From assembly GCA_943788095.1 (NCBI GenBank), contig CALSOZ010000007.1, positions 1-64,000 on the forward strand: a stretch of 64,000 bases of DNA. The letters run 5' to 3'. This DNA comes from an uncultured Flavobacteriaceae bacterium (GTDB taxonomy: Bacteria; Bacteroidota; Bacteroidia; Flavobacteriales; Flavobacteriaceae). This document shows positions 17,504 through 62,359 of the stretch, in pieces. Position numbers and translations under genes: made by a program. A model generated the notes under the pieces. That model was not told where the DNA came from. It saw only the letters and a program-made list of their open reading frames with translations, and did not search any database. The first letter of the stretch is position 1, and each line of letters starts with the position of its first letter.

Positions 17504-18458
17504 ATGAAAACTTACACATATACAGAGAAAAAAGATACGAGAAGTGGTTTTGGAGCAGGTCTTGCAGAACTTGGAAGAACCAATCCAAATGTCGTCGCAC
17601 TTTGTGCAGATTTGATTGGATCCTTGAAAATGAATCAATTTATTGACGAAAATCCAGAGCGTTTCTTTCAAATTGGAATTGCTGAAGCCAATATGATGGG
17701 CATTGCAGCAGGATTAACCATTGGAGGTAAAATACCTTTCACGGGAACTTTTGCTAATTTTTCTACCGGACGTGTTTATGATCAAATCAGACAGTCTATT
17801 GCGTATTCTGATAAAAATGTAAAAATCTGTGCATCGCATGCCGGATTAACTTTAGGAGAAGATGGGGCAACGCATCAAATTTTAGAAGACATTGGTCTTA
17901 TGAAAATGCTTCCTGGAATGGTGGTCATTAATACCTGTGATTATAACCAAACCAAAGCAGCTACTATAGCGATCGCCGATTATGAAGGGCCTGTCGTATC
18001 TAAGATTTGGACGACCTGCAGTGCCTGTCTTCACACCTGCAGATCAAGTCTTTGAAATCGGGAAAGCCATTCAACTTCAAGAAGGTTCTGATGTCACAAT
18101 TGTAGCAACAGGACATCTTGTTTGGGAAGCACTTGAAGCGGCTAAAGTATTGCACGAACAAGGCATTTCTGCAGAAGTGATCAACATCCACACCATTAAA
18201 CCTTTAGACGATAAAGCTATAATAGATTCTGTTGCCAAAACAGGCTGTATTGTCACTGCCGAAGAACACAACTTCTTAGGAGGTTTGGGCGAAAGTGTAG
18301 CGAGAGTCTTGGCACTTCACCATCCAACTCCACAAGAATTTGTGGCGACGAATGATACGTTTGGCGAATCTGGGACGCCTGCGCAACTGATGGAAAAATA
18401 CGGCTTAAACAGTGATAGCATTGTTGAGAAAGTCCTTAAAGTTATAAAGAGAAAGTAA
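17504..18458 (+). CDS. transketolase, C-terminal subunit, frameshifted near 17995
   Basis: ORFs 17504..18055 and 17982..18458; GTCGTATCTAAGATTTGG with one G removed reads [15 protein letters not shown]. Confidence 0.92.
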
Positions 18459-41016: not shown

Positions 41017-44000
41017 TTATTTTATAAGCATCAGTTGACCTGTTTTCTCAACAACTTCTCCTTCAATAGTTGTTGCGATTACGAAGTATTTATAATTACC
41101 GTTTATAGGCTCCTCATTTCCTTTTTCTAAACCATTCCACCCCCAATCTGGATCCAAGGCATTAACTTCCGAAGTAATTTCGTAAACAATATTACCCCAG
41201 TTGTCATATACAAACATGGACACTTCAGTAAAGCCAATTAATGACGCTCTAAACAAATCGTTTATTCCATCATTGTTTGGTGAGAAGGCTGTTGGTGTCA
41301 TAATATTTGCACCTCGACCTACACTGATGATTTGAGTTTCGACTCGTGAACAGCCAAGACTATTAAAGACGGTGAGCGTTACTGTATACACACCATCAAT
41401 TGTATAGGAATGAAAGACCGTTTTAAAACTATCTCCGTCAGAGTTAGGAACTGTGTCTTCTGGATTAAAAAACACTTTAAAAGGGGAGTTATCTCCAAAG
41501 TCCCAGACAATATAATCATATTCAGCAGGAATATTATTTAGATCGACTGTATTGGTAAACTCAATACTTTCATTAACATCGATTGCATTATAGGTCACAA
41601 AGTTAAGGGAAGTATATTCGAAGCCTGGGGATTCAATTGGTGTACTCACAGAAATCGTATTCCAACAGTCTTGATCGTTTTTAACTTTGATGATCCCTGA
41701 AGGAGCCGTTGGGTTATTGATTGCTAATTCATACATTGAATCTCCTAAGTACAGGTGAGGTACTAAAACATTATTGTAATAGAACGCCAAGCTTGGGTCC
41801 AAACTAGCCACTTTGATTCTAACATTTCCTGGAGCGTCCGCACATAACGAATCATCTAATTCTACCGATTCAATGGTCAGTGAACTGTAATCAAATATTG
41901 TAAACAAATAAGGCACTGATGTACATGAATTACTATCTTCAATTGTTAAATAGTACAATCCAGCCCTTAGGTCACAAATATTAAAATAATTATTATTAGC
42001 AACGGTTATTGGCGTTAATGTCTCTGAAGAAGGATCTAGATACTCCAGCAAGAAACTTGTATAAATTCCTGTACCTCCTGTGAAATCAAAATCTGCACAG
42101 CCTAAACTTCCATTACAAGTAACATTAGACGTTGAAAGTAATGAGATTTCAACAGGTTGAACATCAGCAATAACATACGATTTTGTTGGGATCGCACAGC
42201 CTAAACTATCCGTTCCAGAAATTGTATAAACTCCAGGTTCAAGCCCCGTAATTGTGGCTTGATTTTGCTGAAATCCGTTAGGTCCAGACCATTTAATAGC
42301 ATACAAACCACCGACACTTGCTCCGCCTCTAATATCAATTGAAATCGAACCATCATTTTCGCCAGTACAAGAAACTTGAGTGACTTGTTCATCAAAAAAT
42401 GCAATAGGCGTTGAGACCTTTATCACACCTGTTTTTATTCGAGCACACGGCAAGGTTGTAATTGCATAGTTAAATTCTCCTGATTCTATTGGCGTTCCAG
42501 AAATAACAAGCTGACCTGTGGTGACATCAAAAACAGGATTTATGCCTATTGGTAACCCTGTTACAGTCACGCCAGTCGCACCAGTTAAGGTATAGACTAT
42601 TGGCGTAATCGGTGCACTAAAATTCGACTGACACAATAACTGATCATCGGTTCCTACAGCCGATGTTAGTTCTATTGAAACATTCGTATTTATATTTGTT
42701 ACCGAAAATAATTGTGTCGCAACACAACCTGTGGTTACTATATTAAAATTGAAAGTTCCAAAGCCAACGGGTGTTCCTGAAACTGTATATACTCCCGTTC
42801 CTGCATCATAGTCTAGGACTAGATTATCGGGTAGATTAACCGTTTCAATCCCTGTAGCACCACCGCCAATCGTAAATGTAATTGGTTCAATACTTCCACT
42901 TTGACAAATGGCTTGATTGATCGTACTTACGTCACTTGTGACCGTTATTGTAGCCTCTTGTCTAACCTCTAGTGTAAATGATTCCGATTTCGAAATACCA
43001 CAGGAACCGATAGTCGTGACGATGAAATTTTGGGCAACACTCATAAAGTTTGTTGGTGTTCCAGAAATAGTTATAATTCCTGAATTAACAGCATAGTTAA
43101 CTCCCTGTGGTAACGCTGGTGAAATAGTGACATCATCTACTCCTGGAGATACTAAGAATACAACCGGATCAATTGGTGAATTCTGACACGTAATTTGAGT
43201 GTTATTTGTTGAAATAAATGATATATCCTGATCTGGATTCACAGTAATAACGCCTGTCATTGTATTGCTACAACCCGTTCCAGAACTAATTGAATAGTTG
43301 TAGACACCACTTTGTGTCGGGGCACCAGAAATAATTCCAGTTGTAGGGTTAAAAGTAACCCCAGGAATTGTTGGAGTCATTACCAATGTAGCCGTTGTCG
43401 GAGAAATTGCATATTGAATTGGGGATGCAAAAGCACTTCCCTCACAAACGATTGGATCTGGATTTCCAGAAACTAATGAAATGATAGAATTCTCTTTTAT
43501 TTCAATCGTGCCACCATAGGTGTCTGCACTACAAATTCCAAAAGAATTAACTGTATAATTGAAAGTCCCTATCTCACATGAAGCACCAGAAATGGTTAAA
43601 ATGTTTGATGCAATCGACCACGTAATTCCAACAGGCATTCTTGGTGTAAATTGAACATCTCCACCTGTTGCGCCACCTCCTAAATTGTAAGATATTGGTG
43701 CAAGTGTGTCACATTCACATAACTCTTGATCGATTGTAGTTGGTGTTAACTCTGTAATGACATCATTTGAATTGACAATAATAGTGCCGCCATAGGTAGA
43801 GTTACATCCATTGGTCGAACCTGCTGTATTAACGACATAGTTAAAAGTTCCCGAACTGGTTGGACTTCCACTGATTGTTAAAAGGTTGAGTGCTGAGTCA
43901 AAAGAAGGTGTTAATCCTGAAGGTAACCCTGTCACAAACGCGCTTGTGGCTGAGCCACCGATATCAAAAACAATAGGAGCAATCGCCGTGTCTTGACACA

Positions 44001-47000
44001 CAACTTGACTGACCGTGCTTGAATCCTGCGGTATAATCGTGCCTTGCTCCTGAACATCAACAAAAGCCTCATTTGGTAACGTAATATTAGTGGACGTACA
44101 AGCCGTTGGAATTGATGAATCTGACACACTTAATAGCGTAATTACATTAGTACCAGAATTAATTGTTGATACAGAAATTGTTGCAGTATTTGAGGTTCCA
44201 CTTGAAACGACTTGCTGAACTGGATCTGAGTTTATTTGATATGTAAACGTATAGGGTGCCGTTCCATTTGATCCTTCAAAAGTGATAAATGGCGGTGTAT
44301 CATTCTCACAAACCAGATAATTATTTAATCCAGAAATCGTCGCCACAGGACTAGGACTCACAGAAATTAAGAATGTTTCTGTTGAATCACAAGTCTGTCC
44401 AGCATTCGAATAGGATGCTGTTACAGTAATCGTTGCGGTTTGTAGCGTTGCCCCTGAGTTGACCGCTATAAATGGTAAGATATTTCCTGAACCGCTAGGC
44501 GCAAGTCCAATAGATGTATTATTATTAATCCAAGAATAATTTACGGTCCCACCTGTATTATTAGATGAAAAATTAACTGCTGCAGTCGTCATTCCGTCAC
44601 ATAATGACTGATCGGCTGGAGGATTGATATCCAATACTGGATTCACGGTGATTAGGAACTCTTTTGAAGTTCCATTACATGCCTCCCCGTCATACGTGAA
44701 TATTGGAGTCACTGTGATTGTAGACACATTAGGAGACAATCCAGTATTTAGTGCCGTAAAGGGCAAAATAGTTCCTGATCCACTCGCTCCTAAGCCTGTA
44801 CTTGTATTGTTATTCGTCCAAGTATAAGTCGTCGTTCCAAGCGTGTTTAAAGTATTAAAATTAATTTCCGTTGTGAGCCCAGCTGTACAAATGGTCTGAT
44901 CTATAGGCTGAATCACATGAGCACTCGGATTCACCGTGATTGTAAATGTTTCGGTAGCCCCAACACATGATACAGAATCATTTGTATATGTTGGAGTTAC
45001 TGTAATTGTTGCCACAATTGGAGAAAAACCAGTATTAACCGCTGTGAAAGACCCAATATTATCTGTTCCATTTGCAACTAATCCAATCGTAGAATTATTA
45101 TTTTCCCAAGTATAGGTGGTTGTTCCACCTAAATTATTAGAAGAAAAGCTTACTAAGTTGGTATTTTCTCCGTTACATAAAACTTGAGAAATTGGTACGT
45201 TCAATTCTGCAGTTGGGTTGACCGTGATTGTAAATGTTTTTGGAAGCCCCGAACAGCTAACGCCAGCATAGTTATAAACTGGAGTCACCACTATAGATGC
45301 TACAACTGGAATATTTCCATTGTTAACAGCAATAAAAGAAGGGATATTTCCAATCCCTGAAGCAGCTAAGCCGATACTTGGATTATTATTATTCCACTCA
45401 TAAGTCGTAGCTCCTGAATTATTGGCCGAAACAAAATTCACAGAGGGAGTGGAATCCGTATTACAGACCGTTACACTTGTAGGTAAAACAACATCAGCTG
45501 AAGGATTGACCGTAATTGAAAAAGTTAATATTGAGCCTACACAACTGACACCTCCATTTGAAAAAGTTGGTGTTACTTGTATCGTAGCAACCGAAGGAAT
45601 TAAACCCGAATTAGTTGCCGTGAACGATGGGATGTTACCAACGCCACTAGCACCTAAACCGATTGCTATATTGTTATTTGTCCAAGCATAAGTGGTCGTC
45701 CCACCTGTATTATTAGAATTAAAATTATAAAAGAATGCATCGCCATCGCAAATCACTTGTGCGAGGGGTTGAATCAATTCAGATTCTGGATTCACTGTGA
45801 TTGTAAATGTTTTAGAAACGCCTTCACAACTTTCGCCACCAAACTCATAGGATGGAGTTACTGTAATAGTTCCGATTGCAGTTGCGTTTGTAGTATTTGA
45901 AGCCACAAAGGATGGTATCGGACCTGTTCCTGAAGCACCTAATCCAATACTTGGATTAGAATTAGTCCATGAAAAGGTCGTCGTTCCGATGGTGTTGTTC
46001 GTCGTAAAGTTGACTACTGATGTAGTGTCGCCATTACAAACAACTTCAGAAACTGGCTGAACTACCTGGCCTGAGGGATTGACTGTAATCGTAATCGTTT
46101 CTGAGGGTCCAGAACAGGACAAGCCATCATTTGTAAAGTTAGGAGTCACTGTTATATTGGCTACTACTGGAGTTCCAGTCAAATTGGATGCTATAAACGT
46201 TGGAATACTTCCCGTTCCTGAAGCTGGCAAACCAATACTCGTATTCGAATTTGACCAAGTATAGGTTGTAAGACCTACTGTATTAACAGTCGTAAATGTT
46301 AGACTCGTAGAATCTCCGTTACATACTGTCTGCGGGGCTTGAGCGTTTACTTGTGCAACTGGATTGACCGTAATCGTATACGTTTCTGAAGGTCCAGTAC
46401 AAATGACCCCTCCATTATCATAAAAAGGCGTGACTGTGATAGTGGACACAACTGGTGCCGTTCCAGAATTGGTGGCGGTAAAAGTAGGAACATCTCCTGT
46501 ACCGCTACTTATGTTTAAACCTGTCGACAAATTATCATTTGTCCACGAATATGTTGTTGTCCCCATCGTGTTTGATGAACTAAAGCTAGTGCTGCCTACA
46601 GAATCACCATCGCAAAACACTAAAGAAACGGGTTGATTAACCTGTGCAGAAGGATTGACCGTGATTGTGAAATTTTCAACGGCTCCTGTACAACTTTGAC
46701 CGTTATGCGTATACGTTGGAGTGACCGACAGACTTGCAACGATTGGTGAGTTGCTAGTATTAATCGCTGTGAATGTAGAAATATCGCTGGTACCCGATGT
46801 AGGAATTCCAATACTAGGTGTGTTATTCGTCCATGCATACGTAGTGGTACCTACACTATTTAAAGTGTTAAAGGTTACTACTGTTGAATCGCCTTCACAA
46901 AGCGTTTGTGATGTTGGAGCAATCATATTTGCATTAGGATTAACCGTAATTGTAAACACTTTATTTGGGCCTTCACAATCGACGCCATTAAAACTAAATG

Positions 47001-50000
47001 TTGGTGTTACTTGAATTGTTGAAGTGATAGGAGTCGTTCCTGTATTTGTCGTCGAAAATGTGATCGAAGACCCAACCCCACTAACAGCCGTCAATCCAAT
47101 AGCAGTATTGCTATTTGTCCACTCATATGTGGTCGTACCAACAGTATTTGAAGTATTAAAGTTAATAACCGCAACATCGGATTCACAAAAGACTTCATTT
47201 GAAGGTTGATCTACTTCAGCAGTAGGATTTACTGTAATCGAAAACGTTTCAGGATTTCCAGAACAAACTTGTCCGTTGTATGTAAACGTTGGAGTTACAG
47301 TGATGTTTGCAACTTGTGGTATCGTGCTAGTATTGATAGCGGTAAAAGGAGCAATATTACCTGTTCCTGCGGCCAATATAGAACCAATAGTCGTATTACT
47401 ATTAGTCCAAGAATAAGTTGTTGTCCCTAATGTCGTAAGTGTCGAAAAGTTGATGGCTGATATCAAATCGCCTGCACAGACCGTTGAAGATCCGATCGGA
47501 TCCACTTGAGCGGATGGATTCACTGTAATTGTAAACGTCTTTGATGGTCCAGTACAAGAAAGCCCTCCGTGATCAAACGTTGGCGTCACCGTGATGGTCG
47601 CTACTTGTGGAGTACCCGTAGAATTTAGTGCTGTAAATGAACTTATATCACCAGTTCCATTGGCAGTTGCAATCCCAATATTAACATTGTCATTCGTCCA
47701 ATTATAAGTCGTTGTGCCAACCGTATTTAAGGTTGTAAAATTAATGGTTGGTACTATTTCGCCTTCACAAAGTAAAAGAGATGTCGGTTGATTTATTTGA
47801 GCCGATGGATTGACTGTTATCGTAAATGTCTCAGGAGATCCAGCACAATCTTTACCATTGAAGGTATAGGTTGGTGTGACAACAATCGTTGCAACTTGTG
47901 GGATCGTAGATGAATTCGTGGCCACAAATGATCCGATATCGGTAGAACCCGATGCCACTAAGCCAATGCTCGTATTATCGTTCGTCCAACTATAGGACGT
48001 TGCACCTGAACTATTTGAAGTTGTAAATATGATTGACGTCGTACTGTCTCCATTACACACTACTTCCGACGAAATTGAATTGACTTGAGCCGCTGGATTT
48101 ATTGTGATTGTAAACGTTTTTGTAGGACCTGTACAAGAGATTCCTTCGTTATCAAACGTTGGCGTCACCACTATATTTGCAATTTGACTGACAGAAGAGG
48201 TATTGGTCATTGTAATACCCGAAATATCACCTGAACCTGTTGATGGCAATCCTATTGAAGGATTATTATTGGCCCACGTATACCCTGAAATGCCTCCAGT
48301 ATTAGTCGTATCAAAATCCACATTCAAGATTTCCCCCACACATAAATTCTGTGCAATTGGTTGATCAACATTTGGTTCTGGATTCACAACAACATCAAAT
48401 GTAATTGGATCTCCAGTACATCCAGCTAAATTTGCAGGCAGTAATGCTGAATATACCACTGTGATTGGAGCAGTTGTAACATTAGTTAAAACTTCACTTA
48501 TCGTATCGACTCCACTACTTCCGGGTTCCGTAATTCCTGTAACACTCGCTCTAGTCCAATTAATACTTCCTGTGACATTGGAGGTTAACGTATGATTAAA
48601 TTGATCACCAGAGCAAATAGCTGCTACTGGAGTAGCCGAAGTTAGAATAGGATTCGGATCAACGTCAACTGTAATAGTTTCTGAATCACTACAACCATCT
48701 TCTGAAGTTAAAGTGATAATATAATTTACTGGAATTGTTACAGAACTTGTATTTGTTAGAACTTCGCTAATTATTCCTGTCCCAGATCCCGCAGTATTTG
48801 AAATTCCAGAAATGACTGCTCTAGTCCAACTGTAGGTTGTACTAGCTAATGCCGAAGTTGGTACATATTCAAAAGTTTCATCACTACAAATTGAAGGTGG
48901 AGTCAATGTACTCGTCAAAGTTGGTTGTGATTGAACTGTGATTGGTAGAGCTGCAGAAGAAGCTCCCAATCCACAAGAATTATTTCCTTGAACAGATAAA
49001 TTACCGGAAGTAGCTGAAGCAGCAAACGCAATAGAAATTGTATTGGTTAATGTAGATATAGTGCTTCCGTCAGGTAACGTCCATAAATAAGAATTTGTAT
49101 TTGGAATTACAGTCGTCGTATACACATGGGTCGATCCTTCACAGACCGTTTGTGTTCCAGAAACAATGCTCGTTGTAGGCAATTCGCTTATTGTGATTGG
49201 TAATGTAGAACTTGGTCCACTTCCACACCCATTAACGCCATTTACAGAAACATTCCCTGAGACAGCTGTAGGACCATAATCAACACTAATAGAATTGGTT
49301 CCTTGTCCAGAAACAATTGTTGCTCCAGTTGGCACTTGCCAATCATAGGTAATTACATTTGAATTTACAGGCACTGTATAAACAACGCCCAAGTTGCCCT
49401 GACAAATGGTGTTTAGACCTGAAATAGCTCCTAAATTTGGAATCGTACAATTGATAGTCAGCGTTACAGAATCTGAAACCGATTCTGTACTACAAGCGCC
49501 AACACCATCGGCTGTTAATGTTAAAACTTCTGGAGTACAACTGTTGCTAAACGACTCATACACAACAGGATTTCCTAGGTTAAAATTACCTGACAAACTT
49601 CCTGAAGTTGTCCAACTCACAGAACTCGCATTTGTAACATCTGTTCCTAGTATTGTAAAAGGAGCAATTGCTGTTCCTGGGATATAACATATCGCACCAT
49701 TATCGCCAGCTTCAACCGATGGAAGTGCCTGTGTGGTCACCGTAATTTCTTGAATGGCGTTGTCTGCACACACCCCTAATGGAGTGGCAACAAGACGAAG
49801 TCTTGTTACTACATTTGAAGGAATATCTGTTCCTAAGCCTGAAAAATAGACGTCATTTATCACTGATCCTGGGCCATCAATAATACTCCATGTTAGTGTA
49901 TCGTAATTGGTGCCAGATCCGTTTAATGTAATCCCAGTTGTCGTACTAACACATGTGCTAATATCAATTGCAGAAACCGTTGGATCCTTAATTATATTTA

Positions 50001-53000: not shown

Positions 53001-56000
53001 TTACACCAGAAATTACAAAAGGTTCTGAGCTACAGACTTCCTGAACTGAATCCACTACATCAACCGTTGGTTTAGGTTGAACGACCACTAAAAGCGTTTG
53101 AACAAAAGGTGCACATGTCGCCGTTGATGTGGACGTTAATTGGATCTCAAAATCATCCTCATTTCCAGGAAATTGATTGAACGTAGCGGTATCTGAATTT
53201 GCATTTATAAACGTTCCATGATTGCCATTAATTTCGGTCCATGCAAGTGTATTTCCATCTAAATTAAGGGCAGTCGCCGTATAGGGTTCTTCAGCACAAA
53301 CAGCTCCAAGAGAACTAATCGTTGCGTTTGGCGCTTGATCGATTGTGATTGTAATTTCTTCAAAATCAGTGGAAGAACAAGGCGCATTGCTCGTTGCGGT
53401 TAGGCGTAAGGTCACAAAGCCATTCGCAATATCTGCAGCATTAAATGTGTAAGAAGGGTTTAGATCTGTTGGGTTTGAAAAATCTCCCGTTCCAACTGGG
53501 TTTACACGAGTCCAATTTATTGTATTATTTGTGGGATCTTCAACAGAATTACCAGTTAAGTTATATTTCGATTGTGAACTACAAACAGTATCCGTGAGAG
53601 TCGTCATAGACACCACAGGAGTTTTAATCACATTCATCGTAAATTGTTGTGTGGTGGGTTCATCACAAGGTGTGATTCCGTCCACACTAATTTGTATCAC
53701 AACCGTATCGCTATCGGCTCCAGGTTCATAGGTTGGACTGGCGGTATTTCCAGCAGAAATAGTTCCCGTACCACTGATAATTGTCCAGTTAATTGTACTG
53801 GCGTTGTGATTCGTAAAAGTCGCTGTTAATGGTTTATCAACGCCTTCACAGAAAAAACCATCATCGGTAAAATTGATCGTCGCTAAAGGATCAATATTTA
53901 ATTTAAATGTTTCTATGATTTGAGTACTACATGGCGCAGTTGGATTTAACGTAAAAATTAAATTCACAAAACCAGTACCAATATCAGCAGACGAAGGCTC
54001 ATAAGATGGAGTTAAGGTGTTGGCTACTAATAATGTACCCGAACCAGATGATGTCCAACCGAATGTGTCAACAGAACTTTCATTATCTATAGAAACTGTT
54101 CCTGTTGGGATTGTATAACTTCCTTGTGATTCACAAATTGTGTCTTCGTTTGTTGTTAGAGTGACCACAGGATTTCTTGTAATCGTGTGAGTAATTAACT
54201 CCGAAATTGTTCCAACACATGGTGCAATTGCGTCTGCAGTAACGACTAATTCAACTAAGCCATTTGCAATTTCATTGGGACCAGGCGTGTATTCAGTGGT
54301 AATGTTATTAATGGATGCTGTAAAAGTTCCATCGCCTCCATTATTCGTCCAAACTAGGTTTGTAACATTGGTTTCTGTTGCATCAATAGTTGATATAATC
54401 GCTCCCTCACAAATATTTTGAGAAACACCTGGAAATAATATCGGACTTTCCTGAACAGGGATTCGAACCACTTCCACAACAGCGGCACCACAGGGTGCGT
54501 TTGGAGTGACGGTCAGGGTCAAATCTATATATCCGTTGTTTATATCTGTAGTACTTGGTGTAATTATTGGACTCAAGTTCGTCGGGTTTGCAATGGTGGT
54601 TCCAGTCCCTGTTGTTGACGTCCAAATAAAGGAATCTGCATCGGTAATCGTAGTACCTACTACTGCAACATTAGTTTCATCCTCACAAATTGGAGCTTGT
54701 GGCGTTACCACTACAACCGTTGGTGAATCCACAAAAGAAACAACCATTGAAGTGACTTCATCAGCCGTACATGGATCTAGTGCAACCGCTGTTAAAGTTA
54801 AGGTTACCGATCCATTAGCTAAATCGCCTGTTCCTGGATTATAAATTGGGTCTATAATATTAACAATGTCAGAATCAAAAGTTCCATCCCCTGCTCCATT
54901 GGACCAAACTAAATTATTAACCGTCGTTGTATCAAAACTAGCGGTGGTAATTTGGAACGGTAAATCACATTCTGTTAAGTCAACACCCGCATCAGCAACC
55001 GGTAAAACCTGAAATAAAAGATTGAAACTTTCGGTCACCTCAATTGCACATGGAGCAACAGAGTCAACAGTGATTGTTAAAGTCACATTGCCAGCCGCTA
55101 AATCGGCATTAGAAGGATTATAAATAGGATTCAAAGGATTTGCGGAAGCCGTAAAAACGCCGGTACCCGTGGTTTTCCAAACAATGGAATTAATATCGTA
55201 AGCCGTCGCTGGTGCAATGGACACTCCTCCAATTCCAAATGTATTTTGATCGATACAAATTGAAGTTGTTGGTGGAACCGTAATAACCGGTAATTTTTGT
55301 AAATCAAGCTGAATGGTGTCTGTAACTAAACCAACGCATGGCGCATTTGAATTTGCTTCAAGCGTAAGAATCACAAAACCTGTATCGTAATCTGTCGCAG
55401 AAGGTGTATACGTTTCTAATAAATTGTTCGGATTTGCTGTTGACCAAGTCCCTGTTCCTGAAGAAGACCAAGTAACCGTTGAATAATCAATAGCAGTCGC
55501 TTGATTGGTCACATAAAATGACGGTGCAAGTGCACCTTCACATAAACTTACTATTGGTGGCCCCGCATCTACAGTTGGTTTTTCAATAAAATTTAGTGTA
55601 ATTGTGTCTTGTGTTGAGGAATTACAATTTAAAGGCGTTCTAGAAGCGGTTAAGGTTAGTGTCACCACGCCGAGTTCATAATCGGCAGGTTGTGGAAAAT
55701 AGGTTGGTGTTTCAGTCGTTTCCAACCCTCCAAAATTACCGGTTCCTGAGGTTTCCCATAATAAGGTATCATAGTGATCTAAAACGATATTAGTAATCGG
55801 AAAGTTGGGTGTATCCACACACAAATTCACATTTGGATTGATAAACGTAATTTCTGGTATTTTGTTGATTGTCAGCTTCATTTGGTCGACTGCATCTGCG
55901 TTACAAGGAAAATTTTTAGTTCCTCGAATTGTTAAGATTACAGATCCAGAGCTTTTATCATTATCTCCAGGAGAATAAATTGGAGAAAGTGTATTTGCTC

Positions 56001-59000
56001 CAGTCCATGATCCATCACCATCAGAATCCCAAATCACATCAACATAATTAGTAGCACTCGCAGAGTTGATTTCATAATCCTCATCTTCACAAATTTGAGC
56101 ATCATTTCCAGCATCAACAACTGGCTTTGAAACAATTGTAATAGTGGTATTTGAACTCGATGGTATTGTACATGGAGCAATCGCGTTGGCTTCAAGGGTC
56201 AGAAAAATAGTTCCAGATTCATTAGCTTGAGAGGTATAGGTTGGATTACTAGTATTATCATTAGTAAAACTTCCTGTTCCACCACTACGGATCCAGCTAT
56301 AACTACTAGCATTGGTTCCTGTTCCAGGGATTGTAACGATATCTCCTTGGCAAATTGTTTGTGCAAGACCTGCGTTTGTGATTGGATTTTTTTGAATGGT
56401 TAAAACCATTGTATCGGAATCAGCTGCACAACCTGCCTGTGATGCTGTAACGGTAAAACTCACCGACCCCGATGATTTATCTCCTGGGCTGAGTGTATAT
56501 ATAGGATCTTCAACATTCACATTATCGAAACTACCTGATCCAGTTGAAGTCCACGTAATTAAATTTTCATTTGCTACCGTTGATTGTAATTGATAGGTGT
56601 TATTGCTTTCACAAATGGTCGCATCGCCACCCGCCACAGCTGATGGTGCTGCATTAATTGTGTAGAGCACAGAATCTGTATCATTTGAACCACAGCTATT
56701 CATAGGAGTAACATCTACAATAAGTGTTACTGTAGAATTTAAATCGCTTGCAGCAGGAACATAGATTGGATTTTGAACCGTAGGATCAATGAAAAAACCG
56801 TTTCCTGTTGCTGGATCGACCCTCCATAATATGGACTCAGCGTTTTGAATCGATGCCCCAATAATGTTTATGGGACCTTCACAGGCTAAACTGTCAGGAC
56901 CTGCATTAACTAGCGGTGCTTTTACGATATTTAAAATTAAATCATCTGAAATTGGTGCCGTACAAGGGCTATTCCCAGAAGTAGAAAGCGTCAAGGTAAC
57001 CGTACCATTTATAATATCAGATGCCCCTGGAATATATGTAGGCGTTAAAGAACTTAAATTCGTAAAGGTTCCATCTCCAGATCGAGTCCAAGCATATGTA
57101 CTTGGCACTCCATTCGTTACCGTCACTTGGCCAGGAGAAAATGTGTAATTAGAACCGTCACAAATGGTAGCCTCCACAGGCGCAATATCTACAACTGGAG
57201 GTGGAGTGATCAGAATGTCAACTGAATCTGTATCACTCGGACATGTATTTCCAGAAAAAGCTTCTAAGCTTAAAGTGATAGATCCTACAAAACTCAAATC
57301 GGCTACACTTGGTGTAAACACAGGTCTAAAAGGATCTGCTGCATTCAAAGTTCCCGTAATTCCAGCAGGTAAAGTCCAAACTAAGTTGGCTGCATCTGCA
57401 TTTAAAGTCCCACTAGCATCAATAGGCACATCGACTGTACCACATGTAATAACATCTGGACCTGCATTTGCAGTAGGAATCGCGTCTATATTAATGGTAA
57501 TTATATCTGAATAGGTTTGCGTACAAGGCCCTAATCCAGTGACTGTGAGTCTTAACGTTGCAAACCCAGTTGAAATATCAGCAGCACTTGGTGTATAAGT
57601 TGGGTTTAAAATATTCGGATCATTAAAATCTCCAGAGCCAACATCGTTTGACCACACGACAGAAGAGGTTTCGTAATTGATGACTGTGGACTGTAGTTGA
57701 ATGTGCGTCGATGGTGTTTCACAAATATCAAAAGCAGGACCGTCTGTAATGGAAATCACTGGCTCTGGCTGCATGGTCACTATCACCTGATTTGTTTCTG
57801 TACAACCGTTTGGTGTTGTTTCTGTTAAAATATAAGTAGTTGTAACTGTTGGTGTTACCAATGGGTTGGAGTTTGTAGATGTAAATCCTACAGGGATACT
57901 ACTCCAACTGTACGTGTTTCCTAGAACCGAAGCGGCTCCAACATTAATGGATTCAAATTCACAAATTGATGTATCCGAAATGACCTGAGCGTCTGGAAGC
58001 GGATCCGTTACAATTTCAAAAGTATCTTCAACAAAGCAACCTGTCGTGCTGTTTGTAATTCTATAGGTGAAAATTTGAGTGTTAACTTGGTTAAAATTTA
58101 AAGTTTTTAGATTCGAATTATCTATAGAAACTGATGGATTAACACTTAGGTTTGAATACCAGGCATAGGTGTGGTTCGCTATAAATGCTTCACCAAATGT
58201 TGCAGAATCTCCCAAACAAAACATTTGATTTGGGATATCAGTTATTGAAGGCGCAGGATTGACTACAATTTCCACTTCATTAGAAAATGCAGACGGACAA
58301 GTCCCATTTTGAACTTCTGCTCTAAATTTAGTGGTTTGAGTAAGAACTGAAACCGTGTAACTATTGGTTGTATTCGAGATACTTGTCCAGCTAGCTCCAT
58401 TATCAATGGACTCTTGCCATTGTGTTATGGTGCCTACTTCAGATGCTAAATTGATGACTCCACCAACATTATTTTCACAAATTGATGTAGTGGTAGTTGA
58501 AAGTACACCACCTTCACTAACTGGCGTAACCTCGACAAATGCAGGCGTTGAAAATTCTTCTGGCGCGGAGCCACTTTGCAACACGGCTCTGTAATATAAA
58601 TTTGAAGTGGTATTCACAACTGTATAGGTAGATCCTACATTACTTATCGGTAAAACACCGGATGTAAAATCAACCACTGGTGATGATTCCCATCTGATAA
58701 TACTTCCTGTCTGACCCGATAAAGTTAATACAGTAGAATTCGTTCCACTACAAACCGTTGTGGTCCCAGAAACACTTCCACCCACTGAAGTTGGAAAAAT
58801 AGTGACGGAAACTGAGGTTCTATTTACACTTTCACAACCACTAACATCAACTTGTGCTGCAAAATAATTTCCATTAACCAATGGAAATGATGTTGTATAT
58901 TGACTTCCTGCTACCGCTTGATTATACCAAACGGGTGTTCCAGAACTCGAAATTTGTAAATCTGAAATTGTCGCTGAATCCGATTCTAAAAATGATTGCG

Positions 59001-62000
59001 CATTCGCAATCGGTGCATTTGGAAGCGTTGGTTGGGCATCTATAATTATATTTAAGGAAGCTGAAGAAGTACAACCTAAAGAATTAGTGACAGTATAATT
59101 GTAAGTTCCCGATGGAAGACCGGTAATTGTGTAGCTTGAACCAGAATTAGTAATCGAAATATTATCACTCGTTCTTGTTAAAGTCCAATTTCCTGTTGAT
59201 GGCAAATCGGTCAAAGTCACAGAACCTGTAGAACTGGTACATGAAGGTTGAACAAGTGTTCCAACAACAGGCGCAGATTGTACGGGGATCGCATCGATGG
59301 TGACCGAATTTGTAACTGCAGAATCGCAAATACCATTAGAAACTGAAAACGTATAGGTTCCTGGATCTAAATTGTTTACTGTATAAGAAGTGGTTGAATT
59401 AGAATAAGTTGTACCGTCAAATAAATTCGTTAAGGTCCAATTTCCTGATGGTAAATTAGAAAGTGTCACAGTCCCTGTAGAAATAGAACAACTCGGATTT
59501 GTGACTGTTCCAACCGTTGGCGTTGCAGGAATATCATCAATAGTTACTGTAATTGCGGTTCGTAAACTTTCACACCCTAAACTATTTGTTTCACTAACAT
59601 AATAGGTGTTGGTTCCAACTGCCGTTGTATTAATAACTGGAGCCGTCACAGATCCAACACCCCCTGTGGCAACTAAATACCACTTTAAAGTTCCACTTGT
59701 TGAAGTGGTCGCAGTTAAAGGAGTTGCCGTATCATTTTTACAATAGGTAACCGAAGCAGATGGGACAGCTGGAGCGATTGGTACTGAATTTACATTTACT
59801 TGAACTTCAGATCGCGGGCCTTCACAACCATTAATGGATTCACTAACAAAATAGCTTGTTATTCCAAGTGTATTAACCGCAGGTGTAAGTGATGTCCCTA
59901 GAAAATTTCCAGCAGTAACTGCATCATACCATCGTGGGTTTGAAATTCCTGAAGTATTTAAAGCAGTTGCCACCTCATTTAGACAAAAGTTAACAACCGG
60001 TTCAACAACCGAAGGTGCGAATGGCGTTGGATTTACCTCAACCGTAATTTGAGAACGTGCACTTTCACAACCAAAAGCATTTGTTTGACTCACTTCATAG
60101 GTGACCGTTCCTGCGCTTGAAGTATCAGCCGTTGGCGCTGAGGACAATAAAGTTCCGTCAAAATTATACCAAACTAAACTATTTCCAGTATTTTGAGTTG
60201 CCGTTAAAGGTAAGCCTGTATCATTTAAGCAGTATTCGAGAGGACTGGTTACTGTTGGTGCTGGCGCATTTGGATTCACAGAAATGGTTACCGAATCTGT
60301 TAATGAAGCCGTACAATCAGAGTTGTTAACTGAAATAAGACTCATTTCGGGATCTACCAACGGATTGACTTCGGTAATAGTCGCTAAACCTGAACCATCT
60401 AAGACCACTGTTTGATTTGCACCAGAATTAATTGAGTAAACTACCGTTGCATTTGGCGATCCTGTTACTGTAAACAAAGCATCCTCGCCAGAACAAATTG
60501 AAGAAGGCCCACTTAAAGAAGCGGTTGGTGTTGGGTTTACATTAATAGTAATAGACGTTGTATCAGAACATCCACTTGCATCCGTCCCTGTTACTGTGTA
60601 CGTAGTGTTCGATGTTGGAAAGACCGAAATTGTTGGAGTCGTTTGACCGCCTGGGCTCCATACATAAGACACGGCTCCTGCTGCGGTTAATGTTGTGCTA
60701 TCTCCTGTACAAATCGTATCATCTCCAGATATTGAAATGACTGGAACGACATTGACTTCGACTTGCACTTCTGCTCTAAGACTTTCACATCCATTTATTG
60801 TTTGGCTTACATAATATGAAAAACTTCCTGGGTTAGTCGAGTCTGGAACTGGCACTTGCGATAGTGGCGATCCACTCGTTGATGCCAAATACCATTTTAA
60901 ATCTGTGCCTGTTGCAGAAAGTGCAGACGTAATATCTCCTTGACAATACGTTACAGGACTTATAAAAGTTGGTGCTGAAGGAATCGGTTCAACGATCAAA
61001 GTTTCTGTAGTCGATATTAAATTGACGCAATTTGTATTCGCAACTTTGACTATGCTAACCGTTCGATCGGCCAAAGCATTTAATATAGGGAGACTAAAAG
61101 TCCCTGAGCTATTTAAAGTGATATCTGTATCAGCTCCTGAATCTAATTTATAGGTTACGACCGCATCTGGCGTTCCTGAAAATATAAATTGAGTGTCACT
61201 TCCAGAACAAACAGATCCATTGGAAGAGACTGAAGCAGTGGGCACTGGACTCACCTCCACTTGAACCGAAGCAGACGCTAAACAACCGTTTGAATCTTCT
61301 CCAGTAACAATATAGTTTGTTGATGCCGATGGCGTCACATCTAATGCTGCTACATTTGTAAAACCAATTCCCCAATCATATCTTAGGGCTCCACTAGCGG
61401 TTAATGTGGTTGTTTGACCTTCACATACAACAAGGTCTCCAGTAATACCAATTGTTGGCAGACTATTGACCGTTACTGAAAAAGATGCAGAGCTAGAGCA
61501 TCCATTTGCATCAGTTCCTATGACAGTATATATTGTATCAGATGTTGGGGAAACCGAAAGGGTTGGAGTCGTTTGACCTCCAGGACTCCAAACATAAGAA
61601 ACACCTCCTGATGGCGTGAGTGTTGTGGATTCTCCAAAACATATTGAATTATTTCCAGTAATACCAATTGTTGGCAGACTATTGACCGTTACTGTAGAAT
61701 TTGCAGAAATTGTAATGCCATCATCATCGGTAATGACACATCGATAGACAGCAGAATCTAATAAAACGGAAGATGCAATATTTAAAACATTCGTTGTTTC
61801 TGCGGTCATATCAACGCCATCTTTTTGCCATTGATAGTTTAAAACACCATTTCCATTGGAAACCACAGATAAGGATATCGCTTCTCCAAGACAAACATTG
61901 ACGACTGATTGTGGCTGTGTCGCGATCGTTGGAACAATTAATAAATCGGATGAATATAGTGCGAATGTAGAATCTTCGTTTTCGACACCGTCATAACTCT

Positions 62001-62073
62001 TAGAAAAGACATTAAGTGATATCGTTAATATTGATGTTAAAAGTAATAATCTTATTAAATTAAATTTGTTCAT
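41017..62073 (-). CDS. giant secreted Ig/PKD-like repeat adhesin with T9SS type-B (gliding-motility-associated) C-terminal domain
   Basis: Single uninterrupted ORF. Signal peptide MNKFNLIRLLLLTSILTISLNVFSKS if the ATG at 62073 is used (ORF track starts at 62097). Long Ig/PKD-like arrays; SprB-like repeat VSCTGENDGSISIDIRGG; PKD segment VWDFGDNSPFKVFFN; C-terminus MTPTAFSPNNDGINDLFRAS...FVYDNWGNIVYEI...NGNYKYFVIATTIEG...KTGQLMLIK. Confidence 0.93.
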   Translation of the reverse strand: MNKFNLIRLLLLTSILTISLNVFSKSYDGVENEDSTFALYSSDLLIVPTIATQPQSVVNVCLGEAISLSVVSNGNGVLNYQWQKDGVDMTAETTNVLNIASSVLLDSAVYRCVITDDDGITISANSTVTVNSLPTIGITGNNSICFGESTTLTPSGGVSYVWSPGGQTTPTLSVSPTSDTIYTVIGTDANGCSSSASFSVTVNSLPTIGITGDLVVCEGQTTTLTASGALRYDWGIGFTNVAALDVTPSASTNYIVTGEDSNGCLASASVQVEVSPVPTASVSSNGSVCSGSDTQFIFSGTPDAVVTYKLDSGADTDITLNSSGTFSLPILNALADRTVSIVKVANTNCVNLISTTETLIVEPIPSAPTFISPVTYCQGDITSALSATGTDLKWYLASTSGSPLSQVPVPDSTNPGSFSYYVSQTINGCESLRAEVQVEVNVVPVISISGDDTICTGDSTTLTAAGAVSYVWSPGGQTTPTISVFPTSNTTYTVTGTDASGCSDTTSITINVNPTPTASLSGPSSICSGEDALFTVTGSPNATVVYSINSGANQTVVLDGSGLATITEVNPLVDPEMSLISVNNSDCTASLTDSVTISVNPNAPAPTVTSPLEYCLNDTGLPLTATQNTGNSLVWYNFDGTLLSSAPTADTSSAGTVTYEVSQTNAFGCESARSQITVEVNPTPFAPSVVEPVVNFCLNEVATALNTSGISNPRWYDAVTAGNFLGTSLTPAVNTLGITSYFVSESINGCEGPRSEVQVNVNSVPIAPAVPSASVTYCKNDTATPLTATTSTSGTLKWYLVATGGVGSVTAPVINTTAVGTNTYYVSETNSLGCESLRTAITVTIDDIPATPTVGTVTNPSCSISTGTVTLSNLPSGNWTLTNLFDGTTYSNSTTSYTVNNLDPGTYTFSVSNGICDSAVTNSVTIDAIPVQSAPVVGTLVQPSCTSSTGSVTLTDLPSTGNWTLTRTSDNISITNSGSSYTITGLPSGTYNYTVTNSLGCTSSASLNIIIDAQPTLPNAPIANAQSFLESDSATISDLQISSSGTPVWYNQAVAGSQYTTSFPLVNGNYFAAQVDVSGCESVNRTSVSVTIFPTSVGGSVSGTTTVCSGTNSTVLTLSGQTGSIIRWESSPVVDFTSGVLPISNVGSTYTVVNTTSNLYYRAVLQSGSAPEEFSTPAFVEVTPVSEGGVLSTTTTSICENNVGGVINLASEVGTITQWQESIDNGASWTSISNTTNSYTVSVLTQTTKFRAEVQNGTCPSAFSNEVEIVVNPAPSITDIPNQMFCLGDSATFGEAFIANHTYAWYSNLSVNPSVSIDNSNLKTLNFNQVNTQIFTYRITNSTTGCFVEDTFEIVTDPLPDAQVISDTSICEFESINVGAASVLGNTYSWSSIPVGFTSTNSNPLVTPTVTTTYILTETTPNGCTETNQVIVTMQPEPVISITDGPAFDICETPSTHIQLQSTVINYETSSVVWSNDVGSGDFNDPNILNPTYTPSAADISTGFATLRLTVTGLGPCTQTYSDIITINIDAIPTANAGPDVITCGTVDVPIDASGTLNADAANLVWTLPAGITGTLNAADPFRPVFTPSVADLSFVGSITLSLEAFSGNTCPSDTDSVDILITPPPVVDIAPVEATICDGSNYTFSPGQVTVTNGVPSTYAWTRSGDGTFTNLSSLTPTYIPGASDIINGTVTLTLSTSGNSPCTAPISDDLILNIVKAPLVNAGPDSLACEGPINIIGASIQNAESILWRVDPATGNGFFIDPTVQNPIYVPAASDLNSTVTLIVDVTPMNSCGSNDTDSVLYTINAAPSAVAGGDATICESNNTYQLQSTVANENLITWTSTGSGSFDNVNVEDPIYTLSPGDKSSGSVSFTVTASQAGCAADSDTMVLTIQKNPITNAGLAQTICQGDIVTIPGTGTNASSYSWIRSGGTGSFTNDNTSNPTYTSQANESGTIFLTLEANAIAPCTIPSSSNTTITIVSKPVVDAGNDAQICEDEDYEINSASATNYVDVIWDSDGDGSWTGANTLSPIYSPGDNDKSSGSVILTIRGTKNFPCNADAVDQMKLTINKIPEITFINPNVNLCVDTPNFPITNIVLDHYDTLLWETSGTGNFGGLETTETPTYFPQPADYELGVVTLTLTASRTPLNCNSSTQDTITLNFIEKPTVDAGPPIVSLCEGALAPSFYVTNQATAIDYSTVTWSSSGTGTWSTANPNNLLETYTPSATDYDTGFVILTLEANSNAPCVGLVTDTIQLDLQKLPVITVPPTTSICIDQNTFGIGGVSIAPATAYDINSIVWKTTGTGVFTASANPLNPIYNPSNADLAAGNVTLTITVDSVAPCAIEVTESFNLLFQVLPVADAGVDLTECDLPFQITTASFDTTTVNNLVWSNGAGDGTFDSDIVNIIDPIYNPGTGDLANGSVTLTLTAVALDPCTADEVTSMVVSFVDSPTVVVVTPQAPICEDETNVAVVGTTITDADSFIWTSTTGTGTTIANPTNLSPIITPSTTDINNGYIDLTLTVTPNAPCGAAVVEVVRIPVQESPILFPGVSQNICEGAIISTIDATETNVTNLVWTNNGGDGTFTASINNITTEYTPGPNEIANGLVELVVTADAIAPCVGTISELITHTITRNPVVTLTTNEDTICESQGSYTIPTGTVSIDNESSVDTFGWTSSGSGTLLVANTLTPSYEPSSADIGTGFVNLIFTLNPTAPCSTQIIETFKLNIDPLATINFTDDGFFCEGVDKPLTATFTNHNASTINWTIISGTGTISAGNTASPTYEPGADSDTVVIQISVDGITPCDEPTTQQFTMNVIKTPVVSMTTLTDTVCSSQSKYNLTGNSVEDPTNNTINWTRVNPVGTGDFSNPTDLNPSYTFNAADIANGFVTLRLTATSNAPCSSTDFEEITITIDQAPNATISSLGAVCAEEPYTATALNLDGNTLAWTEINGNHGTFINANSDTATFNQFPGNEDDFEIQLTSTSTATCAPFVQTLLVVVQPKPTVDVVDSVQEVCSSEPFVISGVTATDYASILWTVDGTGSSAGFSNPTELNPTFTPTNPQILAGQVVLKVTALAKADCGNAFDVSDTITLNFDPELTVSFTAPTSICEDDTIALVGLAPDSSSISWSTSSTTSTSGFADPTNLNTIYTPSALDLSLGRVTLTLTGVSNTNCPDATYDLEVLIEKNPIAEAGGPISICEGTISYQVNDAFAYNYDNSVSTNINWSLTGPATIQAGTQNDLNPIIVPTLGATGDIILTLTVNGFDSCNTTDTDTKTITITPSPLVVVPTSRTICEGETLTLTSSEISASNYASVLWTSSNGLGTFTPNNDLATIYTPAAGQTGTVDLILTASSTNGSCSSDSSPVQLEIIAKPVVNAGVDATICVTETYTVVGASVLNEFTYTWSVTGPAQILSGESTTTPVIASDAGATGTAVVTLTAVGTGACPVSITDSFNLEINPSPVVDAGVDAILCEGTASYQLVGSVVDAVASTTYFWTTSNGSGTLQTTADPLQPIYIPGPTDFNSATGFKDIQFDLTATSTNGCASSTDSMVLTIYANPIVSAGTDIFDVCEDTDVILSSATASNYSSITWSTSGNGTFDYSSSLINPIYSLGSDDTTSVTLTLSAMPNAACSQVPVLDTMTIYINQDTTLTASTNEISMCGATFTLPDLIDVSNATSILWTNITGASGTPGVLTNVNSETPSFTPSADEIANGFVLLRVETIPEAGCTTVLTETITVNLQPKLEVEAGASLLFCDGEDIIVSGNGASTSNASTFTWSHDGTGSIEASTVNTLTPKYNPGISETGVITLTLTATSIAPCTGAVFDTMTVTIQSQPTVTVGADFTVCESSNINIVNTTETNANTIIWTSSQNSDGSSSGAYVSGIFTNDAILNPSYTPSQDDIDLGYVYLTIRVSNIACGTFVTDVLKVTIADGVGVFAGVNATVCESDTSYALLDATSNATSVTWISSENSNGTSSGTYLPGSFTDPTAVNPEYNPSIDDINRGYVYLTITGSGNSSCPVNSSFMLLNIIKDPTVSAIDISTCVSTTTGITLNGSGTNYDTLTWSIIDGPGSVINDVYFSGLGTDIPSNVVTRLRLVATPLGVCADNAIQEITVTTQALPSVEAGDNGAICYIPGTAIAPFTILGTDVTNASSVSWTTSGSLSGNFNLGNPVVYESFSNSCTPEVLTLTADGVGACSTESVSDSVTLTINCTIPNLGAISGLNTICQGNLGVVYTVPVNSNVITYDWQVPTGATIVSGQGTNSISVDYGPTAVSGNVSVNGVNGCGSGPSSTLPITISELPTTSIVSGTQTVCEGSTHVYTTTVIPNTNSYLWTLPDGSTISTLTNTISIAFAASATSGNLSVQGNNSCGLGASSAALPITVQSQPTLTSTLTPPSICSDETFEYVPTSALASTTYSWTRAVISGISNTAGSGTGIISEVLTNTSSVTIPVNYIITLTSEDGCSDSETITVDVDPNPILTSATPVAAICSGDQFNHTLTSNVTGSINWTRASVTGITEPGSSGVDTISEVLTNVTTAPITVVYSALLPANLAGCTGDPITFDVVVNPEPNVDQPIAQNLCVGEILNVDFDTTNTGGISGYTWANNNPSIGLPSTGSGDISGITMTNTSSVSQIANIVVTPTFDNEGISCTGPTKTFTITINPAAQVNSISSEVVCNGDSTTSIIFTTSNSSGATSYSWTNDNTSIGLVASGSTDIGSFVATNSSTIPQVATIVVTPTYTFNGKDCAGSPETFTITVNPSAQINQPTSLLLCEGEIVPTINFTTLNTVGTTTYNWTNDNVNIGIATANGTGDISSFTALNSTGTPQVATITVTPTFDHGGLSCTGPSKTFTITVNPSAQVDPIGSSTVCAGDLISAINFSTLTTLGTTTYSWTNSNTTIGSILAAGTGNIAPFTAINTSTIPQVANITVTPTFTYNGQVCSGNPETFSITVNPTAEVDQPSNEVFCESDVAVINFNTSNTVGTTTYEWTNSNTAIGLTAVSGVGSSITFSTTNTGTTPITSTIQVTPTFSFNGVDCEGPNKVFTITVNPNANMIAPTSQTLCEGDSTVVTFNTLNSVGTTTYAWTNNTPSIGIPTSGTSDISTFTAINTSNSPIVASLSVTPTYTHNGQSCTGAVENFTITVNPSAQVNQPVSLVFCDGDSVGSTSFSSSNTMGTTTYSWTNDNLSTGLNISSGTGDVPTFTATNSGTAPVVSTITVTPFYDNGGVICTGPSETYTITVNPVAQVNAQAPQTVCNGDSTSLTFTTVNTVGLTTYTWSNSNTSIGLPASGTGSIPTFIASNLTGTPVVANITVTPNFTNDGLSCSGPSETITITVNPSGQVVQPVSEVVCNGDTTSVVNFTTNNTIGTTTFSWTNSNPSIGLGASGTGPIPSFVASNTTNATAIGTITVTPSYEFGGESCEGVSKTFTITVNPESELIQPLAQVICDGDAFFYNFNSNNTGGTTTYAWTNNNIAIGLGASGVGNIPSFTATNSGLIPSVATIQVTPTFSNGGVSCVGSILTFSITVNPSADVVLPTSVTVCNTDSTPSVNFVSANNSGATTYEWNNNNPSIGLAASGIGNIPSFIAVNNGNIPVVASIVVTPVYNYAGVSCSGLPKTFTITVNPTAELNVPISQVLCNGENTNLVSFSSNNLGGTTTYTWENNNSTIGLVANGTDNIGSFTAVNTGFSPIVATITVTPTYTNDSVSCVGATETFTITVNPSAHVIQPIDQTICTAGLTTEINFNTLNTLGTTTYTWTNNNTSTGLGASGSGTILPFTALNTGLSPNVSTITVTPIFTYDGEACNGTSKEFLITVNPVLDINPPADQSLCDGMTTAAVNFSSNNTGGTVNYSWINNNTSIGLAPSGSGNILPFIAVNSGATLQTATITVTASYSNAGQTCDSTETFLISVSPSPVATISGLNNYLVCENDTPPFITFEGSNGTAPYTFTYQINSDPVQQVVSSGTSNTATISVSTINSGTNVITLLSVSDSSIPTACTSTNITLPNEAFVDVQEQGTIIPQDSSTVSQVVCQDTAIAPIVFDIGGSATSAFVTGLPSGLTPSFDSALNLLTISGSPTSSGTFNYVVNTAGSTNGCNSTYGGTIIVNSNDVITELTPTTIDQELCECDTLAPISYNLGGGATGGDVQFTPRMPVGITWSIASNILTISGASCEIGTFNYTVNSFGICSADTYGGTIEIKENSIISLVSGNPDPIVCEGSAFASPIQYAISPTTATLVMTPTIPGVTFNPTTGIISGAPTQSGVYNYSISSGTGCSNTMTGVITVNPDQDISFISTNNTQITCQNSPIDPVVFLVSPGVDDVTISPALPQGVNYAVNSGIITISGTPTNFMSVAQNFIVTTIGSCGISKSESFTLEVRQEATITVTSDVSTINQAICQSGSIEPITFTIGGGATGIETVNLPDNLVLDYDAGTGVYTVSGTPVGFGTFNFNIVTTGCVATQLFSVTNINTNVSIELTSAVGTDDQLLCQSNFSAPITPIVYTLTGATGVTVTGLPIGINPVFDVTTGQLVISGTPIESGEFNYAITTLPCARIKTGVIKVSTPIAFFDEQVTQVSCTGENDGSISIDIRGGASVGGLYAIKWSGPNGFQQNQATITGLEPGVYTISGTDSLGCAIPTKSYVIADVQPVEISLLSTSNVTCNGSLGCADFDFTGGTGIYTSFLLEYLDPSSETLTPITVANNNYFNICDLRAGLYYLTIEDSNSCTSVPYLFTIFDYSSLTIESVELDDSLCADAPGNVRIKVASLDPSLAFYYNNVLVPHLYLGDSMYELAINNPTAPSGIIKVKNDQDCWNTISVSTPIESPGFEYTSLNFVTYNAIDVNESIEFTNTVDLNNIPAEYDYIVWDFGDNSPFKVFFNPEDTVPNSDGDSFKTVFHSYTIDGVYTVTLTVFNSLGCSRVETQIISVGRGANIMTPTAFSPNNDGINDLFRASLIGFTEVSMFVYDNWGNIVYEITSEVNALDPDWGWNGLEKGNEEPINGNYKYFVIATTIEGEVVEKTGQLMLIK
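42420..44060 (-). repeat. about 6 tandem putative-Ig domains near the C-terminus of the giant adhesin
   Basis: Repeated pattern xxQxxCQxxxIxPIxFxxGGxATxxxVTGLPxGLxxxxxxxxLTISGTPTxSGTFNYxVxTxGC. Confidence 0.8.
44340..48410 (-). repeat. tandem array of about 14 PKD-like domains (95-97 aa, about 290 bp each) in the giant adhesin
   Basis: Repeated pattern QPxSxxVCNGD...NFTTxNTxGTTTYxWTNxNxSIGLxASGTGxIPSFxAxNxxxxPxVATITVTPTYxxxGxSCxGPxxTFTITVNP; 14 units counted by eye. Confidence 0.88.
49450..57790 (-). repeat. tandem array of about 30 Ig/PKD-like domains (85-100 aa) in the giant adhesin
   Basis: Repeated pattern xPxVxAGxDxxICE...WTSSGTGTFxxxxxLxPxYxPSxxDxxxGxVTLTLTAxxxAPCxxxxxDxxxLxI; about 30 units counted by eye. 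Confidence 0.85.
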
Positions 62074-62359
62074 TATTTTAGAATAAAGATTAATCAATTG
62101 TAAATATTAACAAATATAAATAAATTGTTCATAAGTCTCATAAATTTGGGTGATTATATACGAAATAGGAGGTGCGAATTGATAAAAATATTGAATTTTA
62201 CCTCAAAAAAAAGTAAAGAAATAACTTTCGGAAGCTTAAACAAGAAATTTAGTTTTTATTACTGAAAATCGATTACTTGAAATATAATCGTAATTAAATT
62301 GAATTTAATTCGCTATAAGTTATTAATTTTGTTTAAATTTTTTAAATAATAAATTAAAC

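Follow-up and report, generated by a model that had tools for sequence, protein, structure and literature searches.

The locus and its genes

The window, a 64,000-nucleotide stretch of DNA from an uncultured marine Flavobacteriaceae bacterium, harbours a giant gene that runs in one unbroken frame on the reverse strand, from an ATG at position 62073 to a stop codon at 41017. Its 7,018-residue product (726 kDa) is acidic (pI 4.05), rich in threonine and serine, and contains 155 cysteines. The open reading frame listing extends the frame to 41017..62097 via an upstream TTG; the ATG at 62073 is the likelier start, and from there the translation reads MNKFNLIRLLLLTSILTISLNVFS..., by eye a typical signal peptide. 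After shuffling of the same bases (n = 50) the longest stop-free run was at most 166 codons, and the GC content of the three codon positions of the gene is 0.43, 0.51 and 0.26. The original prediction of an uninterrupted frame of ~21 kb encoding a secreted protein of ~7,000 amino acids is borne out by the intact frame and the signal peptide. The informative context lies outside 41017-62073, in the SprF gene, in a divergent thioredoxin-like gene and in the exchange of the entire cassette between relatives. The features of the locus are as follows.

39154..39894, reverse strand: family-2 glycosyltransferase, marking the conserved downstream edge of the exchanged cassette (synteny)
40005..41009, reverse strand: PorP/SprF-family outer-membrane protein, 334 amino acids, no cysteine (Pfam, AF2)
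41017..62073, reverse strand: giant adhesin coding sequence, 7,018 amino acids (open reading frame, orthologues)
41032..41298, reverse strand: T9SS type-B C-terminal sorting domain, CHU_C (Pfam)
41329..41583, reverse strand: PKD domain (Pfam)
42277..42387, reverse strand: lone SprB-repeat-like unit, below the Pfam cut-off (Pfam)
42397..44025, reverse strand: block D, units 66-71, six He_PIG-like units (Pfam, unit parsing)
44338..48369, reverse strand: block C, units 51-64, 14 PKD_5-like units, mean 50% identical (Pfam, unit parsing)
48370..49431, reverse strand: units 47-50 together (Pfam, unit parsing)
48370..48915, reverse strand: units 49-50, transitional (unit parsing)
48916..49431, reverse strand: units 47-48, PKD_6-like pair (Pfam, unit parsing)
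49432..57750, reverse strand: block B, units 17-46, 30 units of ~92 amino acids, each with a cysteine pair and a tryptophan (unit parsing, AF2)
57751..61920, reverse strand: block A, units 1-16, mixed Ig-like, nine Ig_7 stretches (Pfam, unit parsing)
61978..62073, reverse strand: signal peptide, residues ~1-32 (read off the translation)
62360..63790, forward strand: lipoprotein with DUF5106 and an AhpC/TSA thioredoxin-like domain, active site CGHC, divergent from the adhesin

Domain architecture of the adhesin

Cutting the protein at the first cysteine of each regular cysteine pair yields 72 units, which together with trailing residues, the PKD domain and the sorting domain amount to ~75 domains; a single unit, 65, sits between blocks C and D. 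This parsing reproduces the predicted blocks and their coordinates and adds units 49-50, which had not been listed. Pfam families above their cut-offs are Ig_7 (nine matches), PKD_6, PKD_5, PKD and CHU_C. The names differ by block (Ig_7, PKD_6, PKD_5), in keeping with the proposal of a separate domain family for each, and the anticipated PKD segment and T9SS type-B C-terminal domain are both present. CHU_C (PF13585) scores 42.9 bits against a cut-off of 27, placing the protein among T9SS type-B substrates, while TIGR04131 stays below its threshold at the C-terminus (29.7 against 35). The 'SprB-like repeats' did not hold up: there is one match to the SprB repeat (PF13573), at 27.3 bits against a cut-off of 28. 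The block D domain type also occurs in adhesins of other genera that carry an SprF of the same clade.

Pfam thus names blocks A and C and the PKD_6-like units, whereas block B (30 units, ~2,770 amino acids, 40% of the protein) matches no Pfam family above threshold. A Cys-Trp-Cys pattern is invariant across its units, and the adhesin of genome G043 contains 36 further matches to the same domain. Sequence searches of the PDB with the SprF protein, the C-terminal 375 and 1,002 amino acids of the adhesin and a block B profile returned nothing useful. The suggested AlphaFold check, run on one three-unit block B tile from 56 aligned triples, gave a confident, nearly all-beta model (pLDDT 93) of Ig/cadherin-like domains, whose best solved matches are titin I67-I69 and cadherins, with the base of GhpA (9fly, E 8e-11) at rank 9. 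The model supports a view of block B as an Ig/cadherin-like rod, and the match singles out no function. We infer one disulfide per domain; taking ~4 nm per domain, the extended fibre would measure ~250-350 nm.

An old array of nearly constant length

Tandem Repeats Finder (TRF) detects no array within the adhesin gene since the repeat copies are too diverged. Paralogous units are between 28% (block B) and 50% (block C) identical, with no fall in identity with unit distance, compared to mostly 80-90% for orthologous units across species of the genus, so that the blocks must have been amplified long ago. Recent tandem amplification was rejected on the TRF result and on the flat identity of blocks B and C. 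Among the genomes compared (G-numbers, G000 being the window genome), the orthologue of G161 is 89% identical and collinear over 5,888 amino acids with three gap openings; a second orthologue comparison gave 82% identity over 6,814 codons. For the two comparisons dN/dS is 0.17 and 0.14 and dS 0.35 and 0.84. The G165 orthologue is collinear over nearly its full length, minus frameshifts and an absent N-terminus, and in G164 most of the array is collinear. Cysteines are kept at 129 of 129 positions relative to G161 and at 151 of 153 relative to G165. Judged from these alignments, the number of units is nearly fixed while synonymous sites have diverged; near-constancy over ~70 domains is at odds with the common picture of repeat adhesins as proteins that change length quickly. 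The identity at fourfold sites shifts abruptly along the gene: at residues 4251-4500 it is 0.77 between G000 and G165 and 0.48 between G161 and G165 (Fisher p 3.7e-6, uncorrected for the 28 windows). Such shifts point to in-register recombination between species.

Of the earlier interpretation, the giant Ig/PKD protein of the T9SS built from distinct blocks stands, while the SprB repeats are essentially absent and the amplification of the domain types turns out to be old, with a conserved unit number.

Could the giant frame be an assembly artefact, with repeats collapsed or chimeric? The assembly appears prone to indels. The genes thrS, accA, transketolase (tkt) and aconitase (acn) are broken across frames at 2547-4488, 10224-10697, 16643-18458 and 26491-28758, which looks like assembly error rather than pseudogenes (aconitase is unbroken in G124), and the adhesin copies of G164 and G165 are frameshifted. 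Against this, homopolymers are ~7 times scarcer in the adhesin gene than elsewhere in the window (0.57 versus 3.77 per kb), a scarcity that can account for its intact frame, and the gene offers no long near-identical DNA repeats that could collapse. Collinear orthologues occur in the separate assemblies of G161 (5,888 amino acids, three gaps), G165, G164 and G157, which rules out a chimera, the outcome that the original prediction had named as its refutation. We regard an artefact as extremely improbable.

The partner SprF protein lacks cysteines

The SprF gene begins 7 bases past the adhesin stop codon, directly downstream. Its product matches PF11751 (44.9 bits against 22.3) and falls below TIGR03519 (75 against 90.55), giving the adhesin the adjoining PorP/SprF-family gene typical of T9SS type-B substrates. 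A low-confidence AF2 model built from 13 sequences (pLDDT 68) finds its best Foldseek matches in OmpG and FadL, where a 14-stranded outer-membrane barrel of the FadL family would be expected. The protein ends in ...NKRGNNSRFYGL and contains no cysteine in 334 residues, hence no tail cysteine pair. In F. johnsoniae the CXC tail of SprF is invariant in close homologues, and Cys326 of SprF forms a disulfide with Cys343 of GldK; substitution of either one stops gliding, and SprB then remains on display but moves only sporadically (PMC12635249). The rule that ties tail cysteines to movement comes from one tested shuttle, the F. johnsoniae SprF with its CXC spacing; in PorG the number and spacing of tail cysteines vary among species (PMC12635249). 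All 12 intact GldK sequences read from the genus retain the counterpart of Cys343 (NDRGC), including those of G164, G165 and G166, which carry the window-type cassette. The track side of the bond is therefore present and the SprF side alone is missing.

A tree of 56 SprF-family proteins unites the cysteine-less group that includes the window SprF in a single clade (24 of 24 rows, support 100/100). Its sister is a CxxC-tailed group, and the CRC-tailed SprF, the CNC-tailed orphans and the PorE-linked group fall elsewhere. Relatives were sought in one genome per species (84,980 species) with two motifs internal to the barrel rather than in the tail, so that the scan did not select for the absence of tail cysteines. 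It confirmed 111 relatives, and the best 80 loci among them were retained for analysis; these belong to Arenibacter, Maribacter, Kriegella, Flagellimonas, Arcticimaribacter and many marine MAGs and single-cell genomes. Among these best 80 of 111, tail cysteines are absent from 79, the exception being a disrupted frame, and 79 follow a frame of more than 1,000 amino acids or one that runs off the stretch; a PorE-like gene directly downstream, as judged by the OmpA motif, was found in none.

Two records deserve mention in their own right. A fragment at G155:C37:320-613, 57% identical to the window SprF and interrupted by a TGA, lies in a genome that carries the CxxC cassette and is either a remnant or contamination (the MAG is 8% contaminated). 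In NZ_CANNFF010000004.1, labelled Polaribacter sp., the SprF is 80% identical and the open reading frame directly downstream differs in size from that of the window genus; the record may be mislabelled or reflect a transfer from one genus to another.

PorE linkage and the secretion machinery

Type-B proteins with PorE-linked shuttles have been proposed to be static and others mobile (PMC12618676; PMC9143113), the non-mobile type-B proteins being postulated to be the PorE-linked ones (PMC9143113). Four other genomes of the family encode 40 SprF/PorP shuttles, 33 without and seven with a tail cysteine pair; an OmpA-domain (PorE-like) gene lies directly downstream in 20 of the 33 and in none of the seven (Fisher p 0.008, the shuttles being non-independent in that paralogues recur across the four genomes). 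This split fits the proposal (PMC12618676; PMC9143113). The PorE-linked shuttles end in PRFF, PRFY or PRYF, an end absent from the cysteine-tailed shuttles read here, and this terminus may be a docking signal for PorE. The window SprF shares the cysteine-less tail of PorE-linked static systems, and the gene that follows it encodes the family-2 glycosyltransferase in place of a PorE. Its clade fits neither class, having no cysteine and no PorE in cis, and the published rules conflict for it: lack of PorE predicts mobility, lack of cysteine predicts no stable coupling. We weigh the cysteine rule above the PorE rule because it is mechanistic. Other shuttles exist alongside, since most members of the genus also possess an orphan SprF with a CNC tail and a further SprF locus linked to PorE.

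SprA and GldJ are present in 18 of 18 genus members, the window genome (a 75% complete assembly) included, GldK in 14 and GldM in 13 of the 18; export of the adhesin via the T9SS is plausible on this gene content. Four genomes (G000, G157, G161 and G155) yielded no GldK. Loss of GldK and GldM in a non-gliding lineage was considered and rejected: the close relative G166 has both and G157 a GldM fragment, and genome incompleteness is the simplest reading.

Exchange of cassettes at the locus

G164 and G165 share one gene order with the window genome: conserved genes, the divergent thioredoxin-like lipoprotein, the adhesin, the cysteine-less SprF, the glycosyltransferase and an HMGL-like gene. The same flanks in G124 and G163 hold a different adhesin and an SprF that ends in CFGCPDY; the adhesin of G124 (4,894 amino acids, 115 cysteines) has no detected block B or D units. 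Over the genomes compared on both sides (G164, G165, G124 and G163) the flanks are syntenic, mostly at 65-98% identity, and enclose different cassettes. Here the window-type cassette replaces, or is replaced by, a CxxC-SprF adhesin cassette in sister species.

Thirteen species could be typed through their SprF, six as window type and seven as CxxC type, and the CGHC lipoprotein accompanies all six of the former and none of the latter (p 0.0006); G159, assigned to the window type through a lipoprotein beside an adhesin N-terminus, brings the totals to 7/7 versus 0/7. The MurF, GldJ and PorU trees disagree. The best of them suggest two or more changes of cassette type within the genus, a single origin being still conceivable for MurF and GldJ. 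At G000:C5:20200-27900, PorU is 67-68% identical to genus relatives versus 82% for the adjacent MurF, and GldJ is likewise much more diverged, suggesting fast change or replacement of T9SS and gliding genes in the window lineage. A bolder reading, less likely than not, is that in marine flavobacteria the locus alternates between motor-coupled cassettes with a cysteine-tailed SprF and uncoupled ones with a cysteine-less SprF and their own CGHC lipoprotein, such that species would switch between propelled and static fibres while the array stays near-fixed and recombines in register.

Proposed mechanism and alternative explanations

The locus may be read as a T9SS cassette of two genes, to which a helper may belong. 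The giant protein (726 kDa) would be exported by Sec, pass the SprA translocon by means of its type-B C-terminal domain and be retained on the cell exterior by the adjacent SprF-type barrel, its ~75 disulfide-stabilised Ig-like domains forming a flexible fibre. The cysteine-less SprF would be unable to form the disulfide with GldK through which SprB is moved on the gliding track, for which reason the fibre is predicted to be static or freely diffusing and to attach cells to surfaces, to one another or to particles instead of acting as a propelled gliding adhesin. The CGHC lipoprotein might assist in forming the adhesin disulfides. This T9SS tether devoid of covalent motor coupling is the reading we favour, with somewhat better than even confidence; the adhesin is probably a passive tether.

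Non-covalent coupling to the track is possible and would speak against a tether, as do the sporadic track contacts that cysteine-less SprF mutants still make (PMC12635249) and the absence of a PorE in cis. The adhesin could then be the functional SprB of its lineage, with an SprF that couples without a disulfide, for instance through its conserved basic-aromatic tail (RRG..SRFY). Size class and type of C-terminal domain match SprB, GldJ (18/18) and GldK (14/18) are there in the genus, PorE is absent in cis from the best 80 of 111 loci, as in mobile shuttles, and relatives hold a cysteine-tailed cassette at the very same locus. We consider this unlikely given that without the CXC motif F. johnsoniae loses continuous helical movement (PMC12635249), that no SprB repeat exceeds its cut-off and that the SprF clade is distinct from the CRC-tailed SprF; its partner lacks the cysteines that gliding needs (PMC12635249), and the protein is at most a candidate gliding adhesin. 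A static fibre could alternatively be anchored to peptidoglycan by a PorE encoded in trans. A strong PorE match, with a PRYF-tailed SprF, is found at a separate locus in 14 of 18 genus members, G157, G161 and G165 have both PorE and the window-type cassette, and the SRFY end resembles the PRFF/PRYF of PorE-linked shuttles. Yet in the tree a long distance separates the SprF of the window clade from PorE-linked shuttles, and full-length PorE was not found in the cassette carriers G164, G166 and G000 (all incomplete genomes), which leaves such anchoring quite improbable. Very little likelihood attaches to a grappling fibre for prey capture and predation of the GhpA kind: T9SS secretion is common to both (PMC11205867) and the block B tile matches the GhpA base, but titin and cadherins match equally or better, so that the Ig fold alone is indicated; no solved chain matches in sequence, and named relatives in the genus are described as laminarin degraders (PMC6246565).

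Comparison with known systems

Our literature search on giant T9SS repeat proteins yielded no paper that combined four of the five keywords. How track-pulled adhesins differ from stationary ones in Bacteroidota has become a molecular question only recently (2025), with advances on the SprF-GldK disulfide and on static versus mobile type-B substrates. The clade described here constitutes a natural experiment: at least ~80 genomes, among them those of cultured Arenibacter, Maribacter and Kriegella, combine adhesins often as large as SprB with SprF proteins that lack the linking cysteines.

The resemblance to SprB in size and plan that had been predicted is real: at 7,018 residues and 72 parsed units the adhesin is a very large repetitive surface protein (SprB has 6,497 residues; PMC9870892), a type-B substrate beside an SprF-family gene in a genus with SprA, GldJ and GldK. 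It differs from the SprB/SprF system in its repeat families, the SprB repeat being sub-threshold, and in an SprF that lacks the CXC tail and forms a separate clade. The upstream neighbour in the window is the divergent thioredoxin-like gene, in place of the sprC/sprD genes of the F. johnsoniae locus. With the PorE-linked static adhesins (Fjoh_3952/3951/3950; PG1035-PorP-PorE) it shares a type-B protein with a PorP/SprF-like shuttle and a proposed static anchoring, and the PorE-linked shuttles examined are also cysteine-less; unlike them it is far larger, belongs to a separate SprF clade and has no PorE-like gene in cis in the best 80 of 111 relatives. Aureispira GhpA is likewise a giant T9SS-secreted chain of Ig-like domains, structurally similar to the tile (9fly), with no match found at the sequence level; GhpA forms heptameric hooks that serve in ixotrophy, and what the window protein has in common with it is the fold of the repeats. 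The cassette of Formosa sp. Hel1_33_131 (G124) has the same locus and flanks, a giant type-B adhesin with block A and C domain types in common and an SprF-family gene; it departs from the window in its adhesin without detected B or D units, in an SprF that is ~30% identical and ends in CFGCPDY, and in the absence of the thioredoxin-like gene. This cultured relative bears the cysteine-tailed alternative at the same locus, and whether the tail cysteine pair is a coupling switch becomes directly testable in this clade.
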